From Burkholderiales bacterium (GTDB lineage Bacteria > Pseudomonadota > Gammaproteobacteria > Burkholderiales > Burkholderiaceae_C): a stretch of DNA of 64,000 bases. The stretch is taken from NCBI GenBank assembly GCA_021414305.1, contig JAIOOS010000027.1:124001-188000 (forward strand). Direction: 5' to 3'. The notes under the pieces were generated by a model, which had not been told where the DNA came from, did no database searches, and worked only from the letters and a program-made list of their open reading frames with translations. A program made the translations under genes and the position numbers. Of this stretch, positions 10,535-19,086 are shown piece after piece. Positions within the stretch are counted from its first letter, which is position 1; each line of letters begins with the position of its first letter.

Positions 10535-10900
10535 TTACTCGAACTCATCCGCCGGTGGCGTGTCGCCTTGCACGACTCCCTTCAGTTTGTGACTTGCGTG
10601 AAATGTCACGACGTGGCGGGCCTTGATCGGGATCGCCTCGCCGGTTCGCGGATTGCGTCCGGGCCGGGGCGCCTTGCGCCGGATGTTGAAGTTGCCGAAG
10701 CCCGACATCTTGACGTCGTCGCCTTCGAGCAGGGTCTTGTGGATCAGGTCGAAGAAGGCCTCGACCATGTCCTTCGACTCGCGCTTGTTCAGGCCCAGGC
10801 GCTCGAACAGAAGCTCCGCGAGCTCGGCCTTGGTGAGCGTGGGCGTCACCAGGGTCGGCTGCAGGCTGCGGGGCGCGGGCGGGTCGGAACGGGTGGCCAT
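10535..10900 (-). CDS. ihfA: integration host factor alpha subunit
   Basis: A 121-residue HU/IHF-family DNA-bending protein; it pairs with IhfB and bends DNA at specific sites. The core begins [38 protein letters not shown] carries the DNA-intercalating arm, followed by [18 protein letters not shown]. About 20 residues precede the usual IHF-alpha start ([18 protein letters not shown]), a modest extension. The track shows the gene as the tail of a false 718-codon frame; I start at the ATG about 15 bases after the pheT stop. The operon position after pheST is shared with E. coli. Confidence 0.93.
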
Positions 10901-10914
10901 GAGGGGGGTACTGG

Positions 10915-13350
10915 TCACTGCGCCCGCAGGCGAACGCCGAGGCGCGACGCGAGCGAGGCGAGCACGCCGGCAACGACGCTCTCGATCCGCTCGTCGGTCA
11001 GCGTCTGCGCGTCGTCGCGCAGCTCGAGGCGAAGCGCCAGGCTGCGCTCGTCGTCGGCGATGCCCGGTACCGGGGTCTTGGGCTCGTAGATGTCGAACAG
11101 CGTCGAGGCGCGCACGACGCCGGCGGCGCCGGCCTCCACCGCGGCCATCAGCGCCTGGTGGGTGACGCTCTTCTTCGCCACGACGGCGAGGTCGCGCAGC
11201 GCCGGCTGCTGCTTCGGCAGCGGCACGAAGGTCGGGACCGCGCGGCCCATCAGCGCCTCGGCCTCGAGCTCGAACACAACGGCGTTGCCGGGCAGTTCGT
11301 AGGCCTGGCGCCAGCGCGGGTGCAGCTCGCCGACGAAGCCGACCCGCCGGCCCTCGACCTCGATCGCAGCGCTGCGCCCGGGATGCAGCGCCGGATGCGA
11401 TGCCGGAACAAAAGCCGGCCGCAGCGGCGCGAACAAGGCCTCGAGGTCGCCCTTGACGTCGAAGAAGTCGACGGTGCGCTCCGGCTCGCCCCACTGCAGC
11501 GGCGTCGCGGCGCCGAAGGCGAGACCGCCGACCCTGAGGGGCTGGCGCACGCCGGCGACCGACGCGCCGCCGGCCACGGCCGTGGCGTCGCGCAGGTAGA
11601 CCTTGCCGAGCTCGAACAGGCGCAGGCGCGTCGCCTTGCGCGCCAGGTTGACCTTCAACGCATCGACCAGGCTGCCGATCAGCGTCGAGCGCATCACCGA
11701 CAGGTTCTGGGCGATAGGGTTGATCACGCGCACGAGCGCGCCATGGGCGGAGAAGTCGCGCTCCCAGCGCTCGTCGACGAAGCTGAAACCGATGGTCTCC
11801 TGCCAGCCGAGGTCGGCGAGGGCCTGGCGCAGCCGAGCCGGCGGTCGCCGCGACTCGCTGGGCAGATGCGCGACCAGCGTGCCGCGTGGCGCCGCGGCAT
11901 CGAGGCGCTCGTAGCCGATGAGCCGGATCACTTCCTCGATCAGGTCTTCCTCGATCACGAGGTCGAAGCGCCAGCTCGGCGGCACGACCTCGATCCGGCC
12001 CGGCGAGCTGGTCCAGGCGAAGCCGAGACGGTTCATCGCCGACTCGCAGTCGGCCTGGGTCACGGGCATGCCGATCACCTTGGCGGCGCGGGCGACGCGC
12101 AAGGTCAGCGGCGACAGGGTCGGCAGCCTGACCACGTGGTCGTCGACCGGCCCGCAGCGGGTTTCGCTGCCGCCGCAGATCTCGACGATCAGCGCCGTGA
12201 TCCGCTCGATGTGCTCGACCGTCGACGCCGGGTCGACGCCGCGCTCGAAGCGGTGTCCGGCGTCGGTCGAGAACTTGTAGCGGCGCGAGCGCCCGGCGAC
12301 CGACTCGGGCCACCAGAACGCGGCCTCGACGTAGACGTTCCTCGTCGCATCCGACACCGCGGTGCGGGCGCCGCCCATGATGCCGGCGAGCGATTCGACA
12401 TGGCTGTCGTCGGCGATGACGCCGACCTTCCCGTCCAGCTCGACCGTCGCTCCATTGAGCAGCTCGAGGGTCTCGCCCGGACGGGCCCAGCGAACCGTGA
12501 GGCCGCCGTCGATGGTGTCGAGGTCGAAGATGTGCGAGGGCCGGCCGAGCTCGAACATCACGTAGTTCGAGATGTCGACCAGCGGCGCGACCGTGCGCTG
12601 CCCGCAGCGCGCGAGCCGCTCGGCCATCCACGCGGGAGTCTTCGCCTTCGTGTCGACGCCGCGAACGATGCGCCCGGAAAACCGCCCGCACAGGTCGGGC
12701 GCCTCGACCGCGACCCGCAGCGCCGAGTCGTCGCCCACCGGCACGGGAGCGATGCGTGGCGCCTTCAGCGGCGCCCCGGTCAGGGCTGCGACCTCGCGCG
12801 CGACGCCGAAAACGCTCAGGCAGTGGCCGAGGTTGGGCGTGAGCTTCAGCGTGAAGATCGTGTCGTCGAGCCGGAGGTACTGGCGCAGGTCGATCCCGAC
12901 CGGCGCGGCATCGTCGAGGATCAGCAGGCCGCCGTGGTCCTCGGAGAGCTTGAGCTCGCGCGCCGAGCAGAGCATGCCTCGGCTTTCGACGCCGCGGATC
13001 GTGCCGACCTCGATGCGAAACGACTTGGCGCCCTCGCCTTCACCCGCCGGCGGCAGCTCGGCGCCGACGCGCGCGAGCGGCACCTTGATGCCGGCGCGCA
13101 CGTTCGGCGCGCCGCAGACGATCTCGAGCCGTTCGCCGCCGCCGGCATTCACCTGACAGACGCGCAGCTTGTCGGCGTTCGGATGCCTGGCGACCTCGAG
13201 CACCTCGGCGACGACGACGCCGTGGAACGGCGGCGCCGCCGGCCGCAGGTTCTCGACCTCTAGCCCGCCCATGGTCAGCCGCTCGGCCAGCTCGGCGGTC
13301 GAGAGCGGCGGATCGCAGAACTCGCGCAGCCAGGATTCGGGGAACTGCAT
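10915..13350 (-). CDS. pheT: phenylalanine--tRNA ligase beta subunit
   Basis: An 811-residue PheT of normal length. Domain order: N-terminal B1 region ([12 protein letters not shown]), an EMAP/tRNA-binding domain with [20 protein letters not shown] near residues 65-85, the B3/B4 and B5 regions ([19 protein letters not shown]), the catalytic-like core (RLIGYERL) and a C-terminal ferredoxin-fold anticodon-binding domain ([12 protein letters not shown]). With PheS it forms the alpha2-beta2 enzyme that charges tRNA-Phe. The gap to pheS is only about seven bases, and the ihfA start follows the stop by about 15 bases. Confidence 0.97.
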
Positions 13351-13357
13351 GTCGGGC

Positions 13358-14404
13358 TCAGGCTGCGAACTGGCGCAGGAAGCGCAGGTCGCCGTCGAAG
13401 AAGAGGCGCAGGTCGTCGATGCCGTAGCGCAGCATCGCCAACCGGTCGATGCCCGAGCCGAAGGCGAAGCCGATCACGCGCTCCGGATCGAAGCCCATGT
13501 TGCGCACCACCTGCGGATGCACCTGGCCCGAGCCCGAGACTTCCAGCCAGCGGCCGGCGAGCGGCCCAGTCTCGAACATCAGGTCGATCTCGGCGCTCGG
13601 CTCGGTGAACGGGAAGTAGCTCGGCCGGAAACGCAGCTTGAGCTGGTCGGTCTCGAAGAAGGCGCGCATGAAGTCGAGGTACACCGCCTTCAGGTCGCGA
13701 AAGCTCACGCTCTCGCCGAGCCAGAGCCCTTCGACCTGGTGGAACATGGGCGAGTGCGTCGCGTCGCTGTCGACGCGGTAGGTGCGTCCGGGGGCGATCA
13801 CGCGCACGTCGGGCATAACCGCGGCGCCGGCGTGGCGACGCGCATGCGCCTGCGCATGGCGGATCTGCATCGGCGAGGTGTGCGGGCGCAGGTTCAGCCA
13901 GTTCCCGTCGTCGTCTTTCAGGTCGACGTAGAACGTGTCCTGCATCGACCGCGCCGGATGATTTTCCGGGTTGTTGAGGGCGGTGAAGCTGTACCAGTCG
14001 GTCTCGATCTCCGGGCCGTCGGCGATCTCGAAGCCCATCGAGGCGAAGATCGCCTCGATGCGCTCGAGCGCCTGGCTGATGGGATGGATGCCGCCCGTGC
14101 CGCGGCTGCGCCCCGGCAGGGTGACGTCGAGCGACTGCGCGGCGAGCTGCGCTTCGAGTTGAAGGCTGGCGAGCTCGGCGCGGCGCTCGGAGAGCGCCGC
14201 CTCGATCGCCTGCTTTGCCGCGTTGATCTGGGCGCCGCGCGCCTTCTTCTCTTCGGCGGAAAGCGTACCGAGCGCCTTGAGCTGCTCGGTGACCCTGCCC
14301 TGCTTGCCGAGGTAGCGCGCCTTGGCGTCCTCGAGCTCGGCGCTCGCCGACGCGCGGGCGAAGTCCGCCCGCGCGCTTTCGACTACGGCAGCGAGGTCGC
14401 TCAT
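13358..14404 (-). CDS. pheS: phenylalanine--tRNA ligase alpha subunit
   Basis: A 348-residue catalytic subunit. It has the N-terminal coiled-coil arm (residues 5-90) and class II motifs including [25 protein letters not shown] and the motif 3 arginine in [17 protein letters not shown]. It forms Phe-AMP and transfers Phe to tRNA-Phe. I start at the ATG giving [12 protein letters not shown], which has a GAGGG about eight bases upstream; the track's longer start at 14518 runs into rplT. It is the fifth gene of the thrS-led operon. Confidence 0.96.
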
Positions 14405-14420
14405 CGACGCCCTCGCAGGT

Positions 14421-14777
14421 TCACGACAGGTGCGGGCGAACCTTCTCGACGATGCTGCCGAACGCGGCAGGATCGTTGACGGCCATGTCGGCCAGCACCT
14501 TGCGGTCGATGCCGACACCCGCCTTCTTCAGGCCGGCCATGAACTTGCTGTACGTGACACCGAGGCCGCGGGTGGCGGCGTTGATGCGCGCGATCCAGAG
14601 CTGGCGGAACACGCGCTTCTTGGTGCGGCGGTCGCGATAGGCATATTGCCCAGCGCGCATGACCGCCTCTTTGGCGATGCGGAAAACGTTCTTGCGGCGG
14701 CCGCGAAAGCCCTTGGCGAGAACGAGGATCTTCTTGTGGCGTGCACGTGCGGTGACGCCGCGTTTGACGCGAGGCAT
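14421..14777 (-). CDS. rplT: 50S ribosomal protein L20
   Basis: A 118-residue L20 of normal length, starting [16 protein letters not shown] and containing [33 protein letters not shown] and the C-terminal half [10 protein letters not shown]. It binds 23S rRNA early in large-subunit assembly. In E. coli, L20 also represses its own operon by binding mRNA upstream of rpmI. A structured segment in the equivalent place here is listed separately. It lies 41 bases after rpmI. Confidence 0.98.
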
Positions 14778-14818
14778 GGAATAACTCCTTCAGAAGTGGT
14801 GTGAGTGCGACGAACCGA

Positions 14819-15022
14819 TCAGAGGCCGGCGAACGGCAGCATCTGCGCCATGTGACCCATGTTCGTGTCGTGCACGCCGGCCGAGCCGCGCAGGTGGCGC
14901 TTGGTCTTGGTCGACTTCTTCGTCAGGATGTGGCGCTTGAACGCCTGGCCGCGCTTGACGGTGCCGCCCGGGCGCACCCGGAACCGCTTCGCAGCGCTCT
15001 TCTTGGTCTTCATCTTCGGCAT
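14819..15022 (-). CDS. rpmI: 50S ribosomal protein L35
   Basis: A 67-residue, very basic L35 starting [20 protein letters not shown] and containing [14 protein letters not shown]. Position between infC and rplT is the universal bacterial arrangement. An AGGAAGAGAAG-type purine-rich ribosome-binding site precedes the ATG. Confidence 0.97.
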
Positions 15023-15048
15023 GACTTCTCTTCCTTCTTCGTTTGCTC

Positions 15049-15091
15049 CTGCAGGCGCCGCCGGGGTCCCCGTCGTCTTGCAAGCCTGCAG
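15049..15091 (-). promoter_or_regulatory. structured rpmI leader, candidate L20 operator
   Basis: The 121 bases between infC and rpmI can fold on the minus strand: outer arms CTGCAGGC/GCCTGCAG enclose an inner CGGGG-A-CCCCG hairpin. It ends about 27 bases before the rpmI start. The place matches the E. coli L20 autoregulatory site, but I see no direct proof of L20 binding. No T-run follows, so it is not a standard terminator. Confidence 0.4.
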
Positions 15092-15143
15092 TCGCTTCTG
15101 CTCGACCGGGCAGCGAGGCCCGATCGGTTTGCTCTGTTCTCTT

Positions 15144-15692
15144 CTACTTCCGCTTCGGCGCCAGCACCATGATCATCTGCCGGCCTTCAAGCTTGGGCAT
15201 GTGCTCGACCACCGAGACATCCGCCAGCTCGTCGCGAATGCGCTCGAGAAGGCGCATGCCGATGTCCTGGTGGGTGATCTCGCGGCCGCGGTAGCGCAGC
15301 GTGACCTTGCCCTTGTCGCCGTCTTCCTCGATGAAGCGGCGCAGATTCCTCATCTTGATCGCGTAGTCGCCCTCGTCGGTGCCCGGGCGGAACTTCACTT
15401 CCTTGACTTCGATGACCTTCTGCTTCGCCTTCGCCTCGGCCGCGCGCTTCTGCTCCTGGTACTTGAACTTGCCATAGTCCATCAGCCGGCACACCGGCGG
15501 ATCGGCCTGGGCGACGATCTCGACGAGATCCACGTCCTGCTCGCCGGCCAGCCGCAGGGCCTCGGCGATGGGGACGATGCCCAGCGGTTCGTTTTCAGGT
15601 CCGTTGAGACGGACTTCAGGAGCGAGGATTTCCCGGTTGAGCCTGTGCTTGCGCTCGGCGTTCGGGGTGCGTCGGTCTAGAAAAGTAGCGAT
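15144..15692 (-). CDS. infC: translation initiation factor IF-3 with AUC start codon
   Basis: A 182-residue IF-3; the track gives only the last 129 residues because the gene does not begin with ATG, GTG or TTG. Reading back in frame gives (I)[20 protein letters not shown], then [21 protein letters not shown] and [14 protein letters not shown]. The start is ATC at 15692-15690, eight bases after an AAAGG. IF-3 binds the 30S subunit and discriminates against non-AUG starts. Its own rare start codon makes infC translation sensitive to IF-3 level, as known for the E. coli AUU. The gene lies 92 bases after thrS and before rpmI. Confidence 0.93.
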
Positions 15693-15753: not shown

Positions 15754-15779
15754 CGGCCGGAAGATGCACCTTCCGGCCG
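15754..15779 (-). terminator. strong hairpin between thrS and infC, possible partial terminator
   Basis: On the minus strand CGGCCGGAAG-GTGCAT-CTTCCGGCCG is a perfect 10-bp stem five bases after the thrS stop. About nine bases later comes TTTTGTTGTTTT. The distance to the T-run is longer than in a textbook terminator, so it may attenuate, stabilise or help process the thrS-infC mRNA. Confidence 0.45.
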
Positions 15780-15784
15780 GGCCC

Positions 15785-17704
15785 TCACAGTTTCTGGGCG
15801 ATGTCGGCGGCGATCTTCCTGGCGAAGTCGTCGACGGACATCACTCCGAGGTCGTGGTTGCCCCGGGCGCGCACGGCAACGGTCCCGTTTGCCTTTTCCT
15901 TGTCGCCCACGACGAGGATGTACGGGACCTTTTGCAACGAATGCTCGCGTATTTTATACGTGATTTTCTCGTTCCGCAAATCCGAGGCCACTCTAAGTCC
16001 TTGTTTTTGCAGAGATTTGGCCACTTCCCGGGCGTAGTCGGCGGAACTTTCCGAGATATTGAGGACGCTTGCCTGCACCGGCGCCAGCCAGGCAGGCAGC
16101 GCGCCGGCATGGTGTTCCAGCAGGATGCCGATGAAACGCTCGAAGCTGCCGACGATCGCCCGGTGCAGCATCACCGGGAAGGCGCGGCCGCTGGTGTCGG
16201 TCACGTAGTCGCCGCCGAGGCGTTCGGCGGTGTTGTAGTCGACCTGCATCGTGCCGAGCTGCCATTGCCGGCCGAGCGCGTCTTTCAGCGTGTATTCGAT
16301 CTTCGGGCCGTAGAAGGCGCCGTCGCCGGGGGCGACGACGAATTCGCAGCCGGAGCGGCGCAGCGCTTCCATCAGGGCGTATTCCGCCTTGTCCCAGAAG
16401 TCGTCGCTGCCGACCCGGTTTTCCGGCCGCGTCGCCACCTTGTAGATGATGTCGGTGAAGCCGAAGTCCTTGTAGACCGCCTTCAGCTCCTCGGTGTAGG
16501 CGACGCATTCGTCGAGGATCTGGTTCTCGGTGCAGAAGACGTGGCCGTCGTCCTGCGTGAAGCCGCGCACGCGCATGATCCCGTGCATCGAGCCGCTCGG
16601 CTCGTTGCGGTGGCACTGGCCGAACTCGCCGTAGCGGATCGGCAGGTCGCGGTAGCTGCGCAGCTGCGACTTGAAGATCAGCACATGGCCAGGGCAGTTC
16701 ATCGGCTTCAGCGCGTATTCGTGCTTCTCCGACTCCGTGGTGAACATGTTCTCCCGGTAGTTCTGCCAGTGCCCCGTCTTCTCCCACAGGCTCTTGTCGA
16801 GGAGCTGCGGGCCTTTCACCTCCTGGTAGCCGGTGTCGCGGTAGACCTGGCGCATGTACTGCTCGATCACCTGCCAGACCGCCCAGCCCTTGGGATGCCA
16901 GAACACGACGCCCGGCGCGACCTCGTCGATGTGGAACAGGTCGAGCTCGCGGCCGAGCTTGCGGTGGTCGCGCTTTTCCGCCTCTTCGAGCATGTGCAGG
17001 TGCTGCTGCAGCTCGTCCTTGGTCGCCCAGGCCGTGCCGTAGATGCGCTGCAGCATCTCGTTGCGGTGGTCGCCGCGCCAATACGCGCCGGCCACCTTCA
17101 TCAGCTTGAAGTGACGCAGCTTGCCCGTGCTCGGCACGTGGGGACCGCGGCAGAGGTCCTCGAATTGGCCTTCGCGGTAGAGCGAGACGTCCTCGTTCGA
17201 CGGGATGCTCGCGATGATCTCGGCCTTGTAGGCTTCCCCCATGGCGTTGAAATGCGCCACCGCCTCGTCGCGCGGCAGCACGCGCCGCGTCACCGGCTCG
17301 TCCTTCTTCGCCAGCTCCGCCATCTTCGCCTCGATCGCCGCCAGGTCCTCGGGCGTGAACGGCCGCTTGTACGAGAAGTCGTAGAAGAAGCCGTTCTCGA
17401 TCACCGGGCCGATCGTCACCTGCGCTTCGGGAAACAGCTCCTTGACCGCGTACGCCAGCAAGTGCGCTGTCGAGTGGCGGATCACCTCGAGGCCGTCGGC
17501 GTCCTTGTCGGTGACGATCGCCAGCCGCTCGTCCTGGTCGATCACGAAGCTCGTGTCGACGACGCGGCTCTCGGCGCCGCGGCCGACGCGGCCGGCGAGC
17601 GCCGCCTTGGCCAGGCCGGCACCGATCGATGCGGCGACCTCGGCCACCGTGACCGGACCGGGAAACTCGCGCCGCGAGCCGTCGGGAAGTTCGATCGAAA
17701 CCAT
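15785..17704 (-). CDS. thrS: threonine--tRNA ligase
   Basis: A 639-residue class II synthetase of normal length. It has an N-terminal TGS domain ([14 protein letters not shown]), an editing domain with [16 protein letters not shown] near residue 75, and a catalytic core containing [26 protein letters not shown] and TQDDGHVFC; Cys and His of these motifs hold the catalytic zinc. The C-terminal anticodon-binding domain is also present. I start at MVSIELP, not at the track's upstream MFSERPI, because the family begins there. It leads the operon thrS-infC-rpmI-rplT-pheS-pheT-ihfA-merR. A terminator-like hairpin and a short Thr-containing reading frame lie directly upstream and suggest attenuation control. 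Confidence 0.97.
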
Positions 17705-17718
17705 GATGGGTCTTTCAG

Positions 17719-17747
17719 AAAACAAAAAGCGCGGCCGGGGCCGCGCT
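17719..17747 (-). terminator. rho-independent terminator immediately before thrS (attenuator)
   Basis: On the minus strand AGCGCGGCC-CC-GGCCGCGCT is followed directly by TTTTTGTTTT. The T-tract ends only about 14 bases before the thrS ATG, so RNA polymerase must pass it to reach the operon. An upstream segment (minus GGCCGCCGC, 17796-17788) can pair with its left arm with one bulged C, giving a possible antiterminator. Confidence 0.75.
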
Positions 17748-17795
17748 GCATTGGACGAGAGGAAGAATGAATGCGATGTCGGGACGCGCGGCGGC

Positions 17796-17834
17796 CTACA
17801 CCCAGCGGAGGGCGCGGGTAGTTCGCGGTGTCAT
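17796..17834 (-). CDS. putative thrS leader peptide, [12 protein letters not shown]
   Basis: A 12-codon frame, too short for the track: ATG-ACA-CCG-CGA-ACT-ACC-CGC-GCC-CTC-CGC-TGG-GTG-TAG. Three of twelve codons are Thr, two of them adjacent. AAAGG lies ten bases before this ATG. In-frame ATGs also exist at 17843 and 17870, giving up to 24 residues (MDHFKSEKGMSV before this point). The TAG overlaps the first base of the segment that could act as antiterminator arm. I infer that ribosome stalling at the Thr codons when charged tRNA-Thr is scarce would free that arm and prevent termination before thrS. Three Arg codons are interleaved, so an Arg effect is an alternative. No homologues were checked. 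Confidence 0.55.
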
Positions 17835-17892
17835 AACCGACATGCCTTTCTCGCTCTTGAAGTGGTCCATGGGTCGATTGTAAGTCAGGCTC

Positions 17893-19086
17893 CTAGAACG
17901 GAAGGATCTTGAAGTTCGCGACCCGCTCCACGAACCAGAGCCCGGCGATCGCCATCGCCAGGAACGAGCCACCGCAGATCACGACCGGGCGATAGCGTTG
18001 CCAGTGGCGCAGGCCGAACAGCACCGCGGTCGCGGCGACGACGATCATCAGCTGCCCCGCCTCCAGGCCGAGGTTGAACTGGAGCAGAGCCCAGGCGAAG
18101 TCGGCCGTCGGCAGGTTGAGCTCGGCGAGCACGCTGGCGAAGCCGAAACCATGGATCAGGCCGAAGAAGAAGGTCACGACCACGCGGCGCACGGGAAAGA
18201 CCGGCCAGACGTTGTCGATCGCCGCCAGCACGATGGTCACCGCGATCGCCGGCTCGATGAACCACGACGGAAGCGACACCAGCTTGAGCGCGGCGAGCGC
18301 CAGGGTGATCGAGTGGGCGACGGTGAAGGCGGTGACGATGCCCACCACCGGCAGGATCGCCTGCGAGAGCCGCTCGACCGGCTGCCAGCGTCCGCCCTCG
18401 CCCCGGCGCATCACCGCCGGCAGCAGCAGGCAGAGCAGGAACAGCACGTGGTCGTAGCCGCCGAGGATGTGGCGAATGCCTTCCTGGAGGAACTGCCAGC
18501 GCCACGGCGCCTCGCCCGCTTTGCCGGAGGCGTCCGCGCTCGCGCCGCTGGCGGCGGTCGCTGCCGCGGTGCCCGCGGTCGCCGAGCGCGACGGGTCGAG
18601 CACCGAGAGCGCGACCGGCTCCCCCGGCCGCTCCACCTTGGCGATGCCGCGATGCGTCGGGTCGACCTCGGCGAAGAGCGCATAGCGAATCACCGGCGGC
18701 GCCGGGAGCGTGCAGCTCGACGACAGGTGCAGCACCGCGTACGCGCCATCGTTGCGCCGCTCGAGCGCCCGCTCGCCGGGCCGCAGCTCGCAGCCCTCGA
18801 TCGCCAGGCGCGCCGTCGCGTAGGCCTCGATCCGCGGCCACGCCGCCTTGATCTCGCCCCAGGTCAGCTTGCCGTCGCCGTCGGCATCGAGATCGAGGGC
18901 AATGTCGAGGTCGCGCAGGGCGATGTCCCAGCGCAGCGCGAGCGCGCCGGGCTTCGCCTCGATCTGCAGGTACGAGTCGCTCGACTTGTGCGCCTGCGCG
19001 CCGCCCGCGAGAAGCACGAGCGCGAACGCCAGGCCGGCGCGTCGCGCCGCCCTCCCCGCCCGCGCGAGCCGCTCAGAGCAGCGCAT
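17893..19086 (-). CDS. HupE/UreJ-like membrane protein with N-terminal EF-hand-like motif
   Basis: A 397-residue protein with a signal peptide (ending GGAQA). Its periplasmic N-terminal half includes DLDADGDGKLTWGE, a calcium-binding EF-hand-like loop, near residue 68. About six transmembrane helices follow, beginning at GIRHILGGYDHVLFLLCLLL, the HupE/UreJ_2 hallmark; SFLAMAIAGLWFVERV is near the end. HupE/UreJ proteins are linked to nickel or other metal handling, but this subgroup is uncharacterised. Its start overlaps the end of the TPR gene (about 14 bases), so it is the last gene of the DUF4331 cluster. The stop lies only about 22 bases before the putative thrS leader. Confidence 0.8.
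   Translation of the reverse strand: MRCSERLARAGRAARRAGLAFALVLLAGGAQAHKSSDSYLQIEAKPGALALRWDIALRDLDIALDLDADGDGKLTWGEIKAAWPRIEAYATARLAIEGCELRPGERALERRNDGAYAVLHLSSSCTLPAPPVIRYALFAEVDPTHRGIAKVERPGEPVALSVLDPSRSATAGTAAATAASGASADASGKAGEAPWRWQFLQEGIRHILGGYDHVLFLLCLLLPAVMRRGEGGRWQPVERLSQAILPVVGIVTAFTVAHSITLALAALKLVSLPSWFIEPAIAVTIVLAAIDNVWPVFPVRRVVVTFFFGLIHGFGFASVLAELNLPTADFAWALLQFNLGLEAGQLMIVVAATAVLFGLRHWQRYRPVVICGGSFLAMAIAGLWFVERVANFKILPF

Follow-up and report, generated by a model that had tools for sequence, protein, structure and literature searches.

The window analyzed here, a 64,000-nucleotide stretch of a Burkholderiales bacterium contig (JAIOOS010000027.1), carries a thrS leader element on its minus strand, between hupE (17893-19086; HupE/UreJ domain) and thrS (17704-15785). 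In the order of the transcript, the element consists of a -10 box, a Shine-Dalgarno (SD) region, a leader frame, a segment designated segment 2, a pyrimidine tract and a terminator, followed by the thrS ATG, with a cluster of translation genes farther downstream:

17877-17882, minus strand: promoter-like -10 box TACAAT, 48 nt 5' of the leader ATG
17845-17858, minus strand: SD region of the leader, AAGAGCGAGAAAGG, with the core AGAAAGG at 17851-17845; near-invariant among family members
17796-17834, minus strand: leader frame of 12 codons plus the stop TAG (17798-17796); a frame closing after 10-23 codons is present in 139 of 139 loci
17786-17792, minus strand: segment 2, GCCGCGC, 5' strand of the predicted antiterminator, a few nt past the leader stop; perfect 7-bp complement of segment 3
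17754-17765, minus strand: pyrimidine tract CTTCCTCTCGTC, complementary to the leader SD region according to duplex energies and the predicted fold
17740-17746, minus strand: segment 3, GCGCGGC, left arm of the terminator shared with the predicted antiterminator
17728-17747, minus strand: intrinsic terminator AGCGCGGC-CCCG-GCCGCGCT, 8 bp with the loop CCCG
15785-17704, minus strand: thrS, threonyl-tRNA synthetase (ThrRS), ATG at 17704; TGS, tRNA_SAD, class II core and anticodon-binding domains
10535-15692, minus strand: infC, rpmI, rplT, pheS, pheT and an HU/IHF family gene (Pfam IF3, L35, L20, PheRS alpha and beta, Bac_DNA_binding)

Layout of the leader

The leader frame reads ATG ACA CCG CGA ACT ACC CGC GCC CTC CGC TGG GTG TAG (17834-17796), with Thr codons at positions 2 (ACA, 17831-17829), 5 (ACT, 17822-17820) and 6 (ACC, 17819-17817). 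A preliminary description of this DNA, which proposed a Thr-responsive transcription attenuator, had placed the frame and its stop at 17796 correctly. The frame stays open farther 5', to an ATG near 17861, and the start was taken as the ATG at 17834 because the SD sequence, the core of which lies 10 nt 5' of this ATG, and conservation favor it. The terminator of 8 to 9 bp that had been noted ahead of thrS corresponds to the 8-bp hairpin at 17747-17728, with the U-rich tail TTTTGTTTTC directly 3' of it (17727-17718). The antiterminator segment originally suggested, GGCCGCCGC with one bulge, can pair with the left arm of the terminator, but the better match is the perfect, all G-C, 7-bp pairing of GCCGCGC with GCGCGGC. 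The GGU before the leader ATG was considered as a mimic of the tRNA-Thr anticodon loop and discarded, the flanking stem not being conserved and position 33 being C in many species.

Distribution and threonine codons in Burkholderiales

The near-invariant pattern AAGAGCGAGAAAGGC-N5-GGTTATGACACCGCGAACTAC is common to the thrS upstream regions of about 20 further genera in this family. When genome contigs were scanned for the motif GGTTATGACACCGCGAAC, at least 119 loci matched, nearly all in Burkholderiales, including Burkholderia, Paraburkholderia, Cupriavidus, Variovorax, Acidovorax, Comamonas, Rhodoferax, Massilia, Janthinobacterium, Undibacterium and others. Of the 119 matches listed, 116 have thrS downstream in the same orientation, and no thrS match was found within the stretch examined in the remaining 3. 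Two metagenome-assembled contigs labelled Chitinophaga pinensis (L133) and Alphaproteobacteria (L042) carry the betaproteobacterial leader with thrS downstream and are probably misassigned. An unselected sample of 201 genomes of the family contained the leader motif, at one mismatch at most, in 152 genomes; it was missing from 49, and a reversed control pattern was nearly absent from the same sample. Most statistics given below refer to a set of 139 thrS leader loci that includes Burkholderia, Cupriavidus, Comamonadaceae and Oxalobacteraceae, in which the distance from the leader ATG to the thrS ATG is 116-306 nt.

The leader frame is strongly enriched in threonine. Among 122 distinct frames, Thr accounts for 23.3% of the leader residues from position 6 onward (the part fixed by the search pattern being excluded), compared with 1.2% and 4.5% Thr codons in the other two frames and 4.6% Thr in ThrRS. 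Codon 6 specifies Thr in 93 of the 122 frames and does so with all four codons (ACG 33, ACA 25, ACC 21, ACT 14). This enrichment with synonymous variation is as expected from selection at the level of decoding. Certain lineages, such as Hydrogenophaga (MTPRTQELLLLAR), retain Thr codons 2 and 5 only.

A sequence-independent test was applied to short ATG frames upstream of thrS in 49 other families of the order, with at least four (strict) or at least three (loose) Thr per five codons. The strict threshold was reached in 7 of the 49 families versus 0.00 in shuffles, and the loose one in 12 versus 0.68. No other amino acid scored in more than one family (Ser) on the strict measure; on the looser one Val also scored, probably owing to upstream tRNA genes. 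Leaders of these families, such as MFRTSTTTQS, MQLNRTTTTS, MSFRTTTTGTLNQG, MFKRTTTTRISR, MAVRTTTTHP and MVPPTTTLGAFTA, have kept the Thr codons in RNA that has diverged in sequence. Conservation of the leader Thr codons in relatives, on which the preliminary description had staked its proposal, is thereby observed, with the codons kept, enriched and synonymously variable. The heptamer CGAACTA is read in frame as CGA-ACT (Arg-Thr) in 16 of 16 occurrences across eleven families, ten of them in addition to the window's own. In these frames CGA-ACT forms the start of the Thr run (for example, L166, L184, L199, L211 and L247), and the remainder of the peptide differs.

A further set of families (f6, f13-f15, f19-f22, f24 and f47; for example, L168 and L182-L186) has thrS terminators with the common core GTGCGGC...GCCGCAC, and several of these lack an obvious Thr-rich frame; they possibly employ another sensing element or an unrecognized start codon. 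Outside the order but within the same class, a Thr triplet frame was found in 1 of 29 thrS leaders, the weak candidate MSTTTAQR (L269), with one further leader (L274), a tRNA read-through, set aside from this count; the element therefore appears confined to Burkholderiales. As judged from these comparisons, the arrangement of the leader ahead of thrS has been kept across the family and, in sequence-diverged form, in other families of the order, far beyond chance expectation.

The strongest competing explanation is an operator of the E. coli type, in which ThrRS would bind tRNA-like structures in its own mRNA and repress translation, the terminator and the frame being secondary. Such an operator is classically exemplified by E. 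coli thrS, and the nucleotide conservation of the leader, including an invariant GGTT just 5' of the ATG, exceeds what Thr codons need; a 2010 attenuator survey also cites ThrRS as self-regulating. Yet enrichment of Thr codons in the leader frame only, with synonymous variation, is unexpected for an RNA operator, as is their persistence in families where the RNA diverges; the conserved parts are the SD region, the open reading frame and the terminator/antiterminator pair, and inspection of the predicted fold of the window revealed no tRNA-like arm. Such an operator is accordingly considered very improbable as the explanation of the leader.

Promoter and terminator sequences were also compared. 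A TANAAT box, searched between -120 and -10 relative to the leader ATG, is present in 94 of the 139 loci (shuffles: mean 9, maximum 18), and its position peaks sharply at -50 to -48, the box of the window being at -48. A consensus scan found no good -35 box in the window, the -35 region being poor. Since the -10 box peak lies 5' of the leader, the transcription start, predicted near 17870, is placed upstream of the frame, as attenuation requires and as the original proposal presupposed. A terminator between the leader stop and thrS was found in 137 of the 139 loci, compared with 10% of shuffles. In Oxalobacteraceae and Cupriavidus leaders (for example, L043, L076 and L079), a conserved TTTTTTTTCGTCTG, longer than the usual U-tract, follows right after the terminator hairpin.

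This arrangement also bears on the idea that the upstream frame works solely by translational coupling or reinitiation, with the terminator insulating thrS from the preceding gene. Reinitiation after a short leader frame can boost translation of the gene that follows (PMC4833913), and the terminator of the window does lie between hupE and thrS. However, it is positioned between a dedicated promoter and thrS and would turn off the very gene that it was supposed to insulate; 65-267 nt separate the leader stop from thrS; and the gene 5' of the leader is not the same in all species, being hupE in the window but a tRNA gene in Burkholderia and Cupriavidus, whereas the leader and the terminator persist. 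This explanation appears even slightly less plausible than an operator, and attenuation through the leader peptide is retained as the preferred reading.

Pairing, coevolution and folding of the predicted switch

The duplex of segments 2 and 3 has a mean energy of -14.74 kcal/mol in native combinations versus -13.03 kcal/mol when segment 3 is taken from another species (z -8.7). No difference between native and swapped combinations was seen for the controls, segment 2 with segment 4 (z 0.4) and the leader end with segment 3 (z -0.5). The letters that form this duplex vary by group: Comamonadaceae mostly pair TTCGCGC with GCGCGGA, Oxalobacteraceae pair CTAGTCG with CGGCTAG, and in Burkholderia the partner of CTAGTCGAGG is GCGGCCCCTCGAA, a left arm together with its loop. 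On these pairing energies, segments 2 and 3 have coevolved, which bears out the covariation of stem pairs that had been suggested as a check. Pairing of segments 1 and 2 (CGCGAAC with GTTCGCG) is plain in Comamonadaceae; segment 1 is invariant, which leaves the swap test no variation to work on.

The leader was then folded as exposed by the polymerase before the right arm of the terminator is made, with the ribosome at codon 5, at the stop codon, or absent. Compared with free RNA, stalling at codon 5 added 4.26 bp between the left arm and upstream RNA (40 shuffles: mean -0.51, maximum 0.01); compared with a ribosome that has reached the stop codon, the gain was 3.49 bp (mean 0.87, maximum 1.45), so that the contrast between the two conformations, the folding of which had been recommended at the outset, exceeds all 40 shuffles. 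In these simulations, stalling exposes the antiterminator pairing and completion of the peptide masks segment 2, which is also masked in the predicted fold of the free RNA. In the window, the number of paired bases in the left arm and loop is 2 for the free RNA, 10 with the ribosome stalled and 5 with it at the stop codon, and the terminator is predicted to form once the right arm is present. The GCCGCGC:GCGCGGC helix itself appears in the stalled-state fold of a sister locus (L004), and in the window the arm takes part in a helix that is slightly longer and contains a bulge. When the right arm has been made, most species, the window included, have an equilibrium fold that favors the terminator rather than the antiterminator; because the finished terminator is the more stable fold, the choice must be kinetic, as is usual for attenuators.

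A further pairing involves the leader SD region and the pyrimidine tract, which are paired in the predicted fold of the window. Across 130 loci this duplex has an energy of -13.06 kcal/mol in native, -11.68 in swapped and -10.45 in shuffled combinations. By analogy, such pairing may keep translation of the leader to roughly a single round: in the trp leader of enterobacteria, sequestration of the ribosome-binding site by downstream RNA has been proposed, and the thrS leader is likely alike in this respect. A chance coincidence of a Thr-containing frame and an unrelated terminator, with which a single window having 3 Thr in 12 codons (not an extreme number) would be compatible, is contradicted by the order-wide conservation and by every shuffle control and can be dismissed as negligibly probable.

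Relation to known systems and proposed mechanism

The Rfam search recommended in the preliminary description gave no match to any family for the window at the gathering score, and the leader searched up to an E-value of 10 gave weak chance matches only; neither Thr_leader (RF00506) nor the T-box model was matched. Matches to RefA9 and to the Burkholderia RNAs ncS16 and ncS025 were rejected as weak and at chance level, the latter two being far below threshold; ncS16, moreover, lies within the 3'UTR of ompA in B. cenocepacia and is not this leader. In the main texts of open-access papers, no published description of a thrS leader-peptide attenuator was found. A survey of premature terminators mentions threonyl-tRNA synthetase for E. 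coli only, and an Rfam-based survey that covers Burkholderia and Ralstonia is restricted to the four amino-acid leaders then in Rfam.

The class of leader-peptide attenuators is well known, and the thrS leader of Burkholderiales appears, on comparison of sequences and predicted structures, to be a new addition to it. It resembles the E. coli trp, his, thr, leu and pheA attenuators (Rfam Trp_leader, His_leader, Thr_leader RF00506 and Leu_leader) in having a leader rich in the regulated amino acid, a stop codon shortly ahead of segment 2, helices 2:3 and 3:4 that exclude each other and a terminator as the default. Unlike them, it belongs to another lineage, serves a synthetase rather than biosynthesis (Thr_leader being the leader of a biosynthesis operon) and matches none of them in sequence or by covariance model. 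A parallel in a synthetase operon is E. coli pheST, attenuated via the leader peptide PheM within the same thrS-infC-rpmI-rplT-pheST-ihfA neighborhood; there a Phe-rich leader precedes pheS, whereas here a Thr-rich leader precedes thrS at the head of the cluster. E. coli ThrRS represses its own translation by binding tRNA-like arms in the thrS mRNA, which is likewise an autoregulatory leader of thrS in proteobacteria but acts on translation, the elements found here being those of transcription attenuation. In Bacillota, thrS is under T-box control, also with thrS-infC-rpmI-rplT operons (PMC12452182). The T-box shares with the Burkholderiales leader the gene, the signal (tRNA-Thr charging) and transcription antitermination, but binds uncharged tRNA directly, without a leader peptide.

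Taken together, the anatomy, the conservation, the selection on Thr codons, the coevolution of segments 2 and 3 and the predicted switch, all established by computation, support the leader-peptide attenuation first suggested for this locus. Of the features that define an attenuator, those open to computation appear to include the following: an SD sequence with a short frame for which translation is predicted, enrichment in the relevant codons, a near-universal terminator and a maskable antiterminator. The element is thus best explained, with a probability of roughly 0.87, as a ribosome-mediated transcription attenuator coupling thrS transcription to the supply of charged tRNA-Thr. In the proposed mechanism, the polymerase would start near 17870 and transcribe the leader, and a ribosome would translate the 12-codon frame. 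With plentiful charged tRNA-Thr, the ribosome would reach the stop and cover segment 2 (17792-17786), the terminator at 17747-17728 would form, and transcription would halt before thrS. With charged tRNA-Thr scarce, it would stall at codon 2, 5 or 6, leaving segment 2 free to pair with segment 3 and allowing read-through into thrS, a response that would be expected upon threonine starvation. Without translation, upstream RNA would sequester segment 2 and the terminator would form by default.

The near-invariance of GGTTATGACACCGCGAAC in the family and the in-frame CGA-ACT exceed what is needed for Thr codons; this could reflect the 1:2 pairing, a pause at the CGA codon that sets the timing or some second function of the RNA. 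It is conceivable, if rather unlikely, that the leader does more than attenuate in cis, with CGA before ACT acting as a slow timing codon, or with the released RNA or peptide acting in trans. The trp leader of alphaproteobacteria is reported to act in trans.

The reach of the control beyond thrS involves the genes from infC to the HU/IHF gene, which follow on the same strand and are possibly co-regulated by thrS read-through if they are co-transcribed; control of the whole thrS-infC-rplT-pheST operon, as put forward in the preliminary description, finds no support in this analysis. A strong, perfect hairpin, GGCCGGAAG/CTTCCGGCC, lies just 3' of the thrS stop (15755-15778, minus strand), and a U-rich stretch begins some 12 nt farther on. 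The hairpin was not scored as a terminator by the terminator scan but may terminate or stabilize the thrS end and limit read-through into infC. As judged from the reading frame, the start codon of infC appears to be the rare ATC (15690-15692, minus strand), preceded by GTGAAAGG and in frame to 15144, which gives an IF3 of about 182 aa compared with the listed 129-aa GTG frame; a rare start codon of this kind is linked to IF3 self-regulation in E. coli.

The leader yields direct and simple predictions for RNA-seq and reporter tests. If the proposed mechanism is true, it represents a third independent solution for the control of thrS, beside the translational autocontrol of E. coli and the T-box of Bacillota, and an unannotated regulatory RNA family in hundreds of genomes, including those of Burkholderia, Cupriavidus, Variovorax and Janthinobacterium. 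In the Burkholderiales that carry the leader, ribosome stalling through a shortage of charged tRNA-Thr very probably increases thrS transcription, and initiation factor 3, L20 and PheRS may fall under threonine control as well, provided that read-through reaches their genes.
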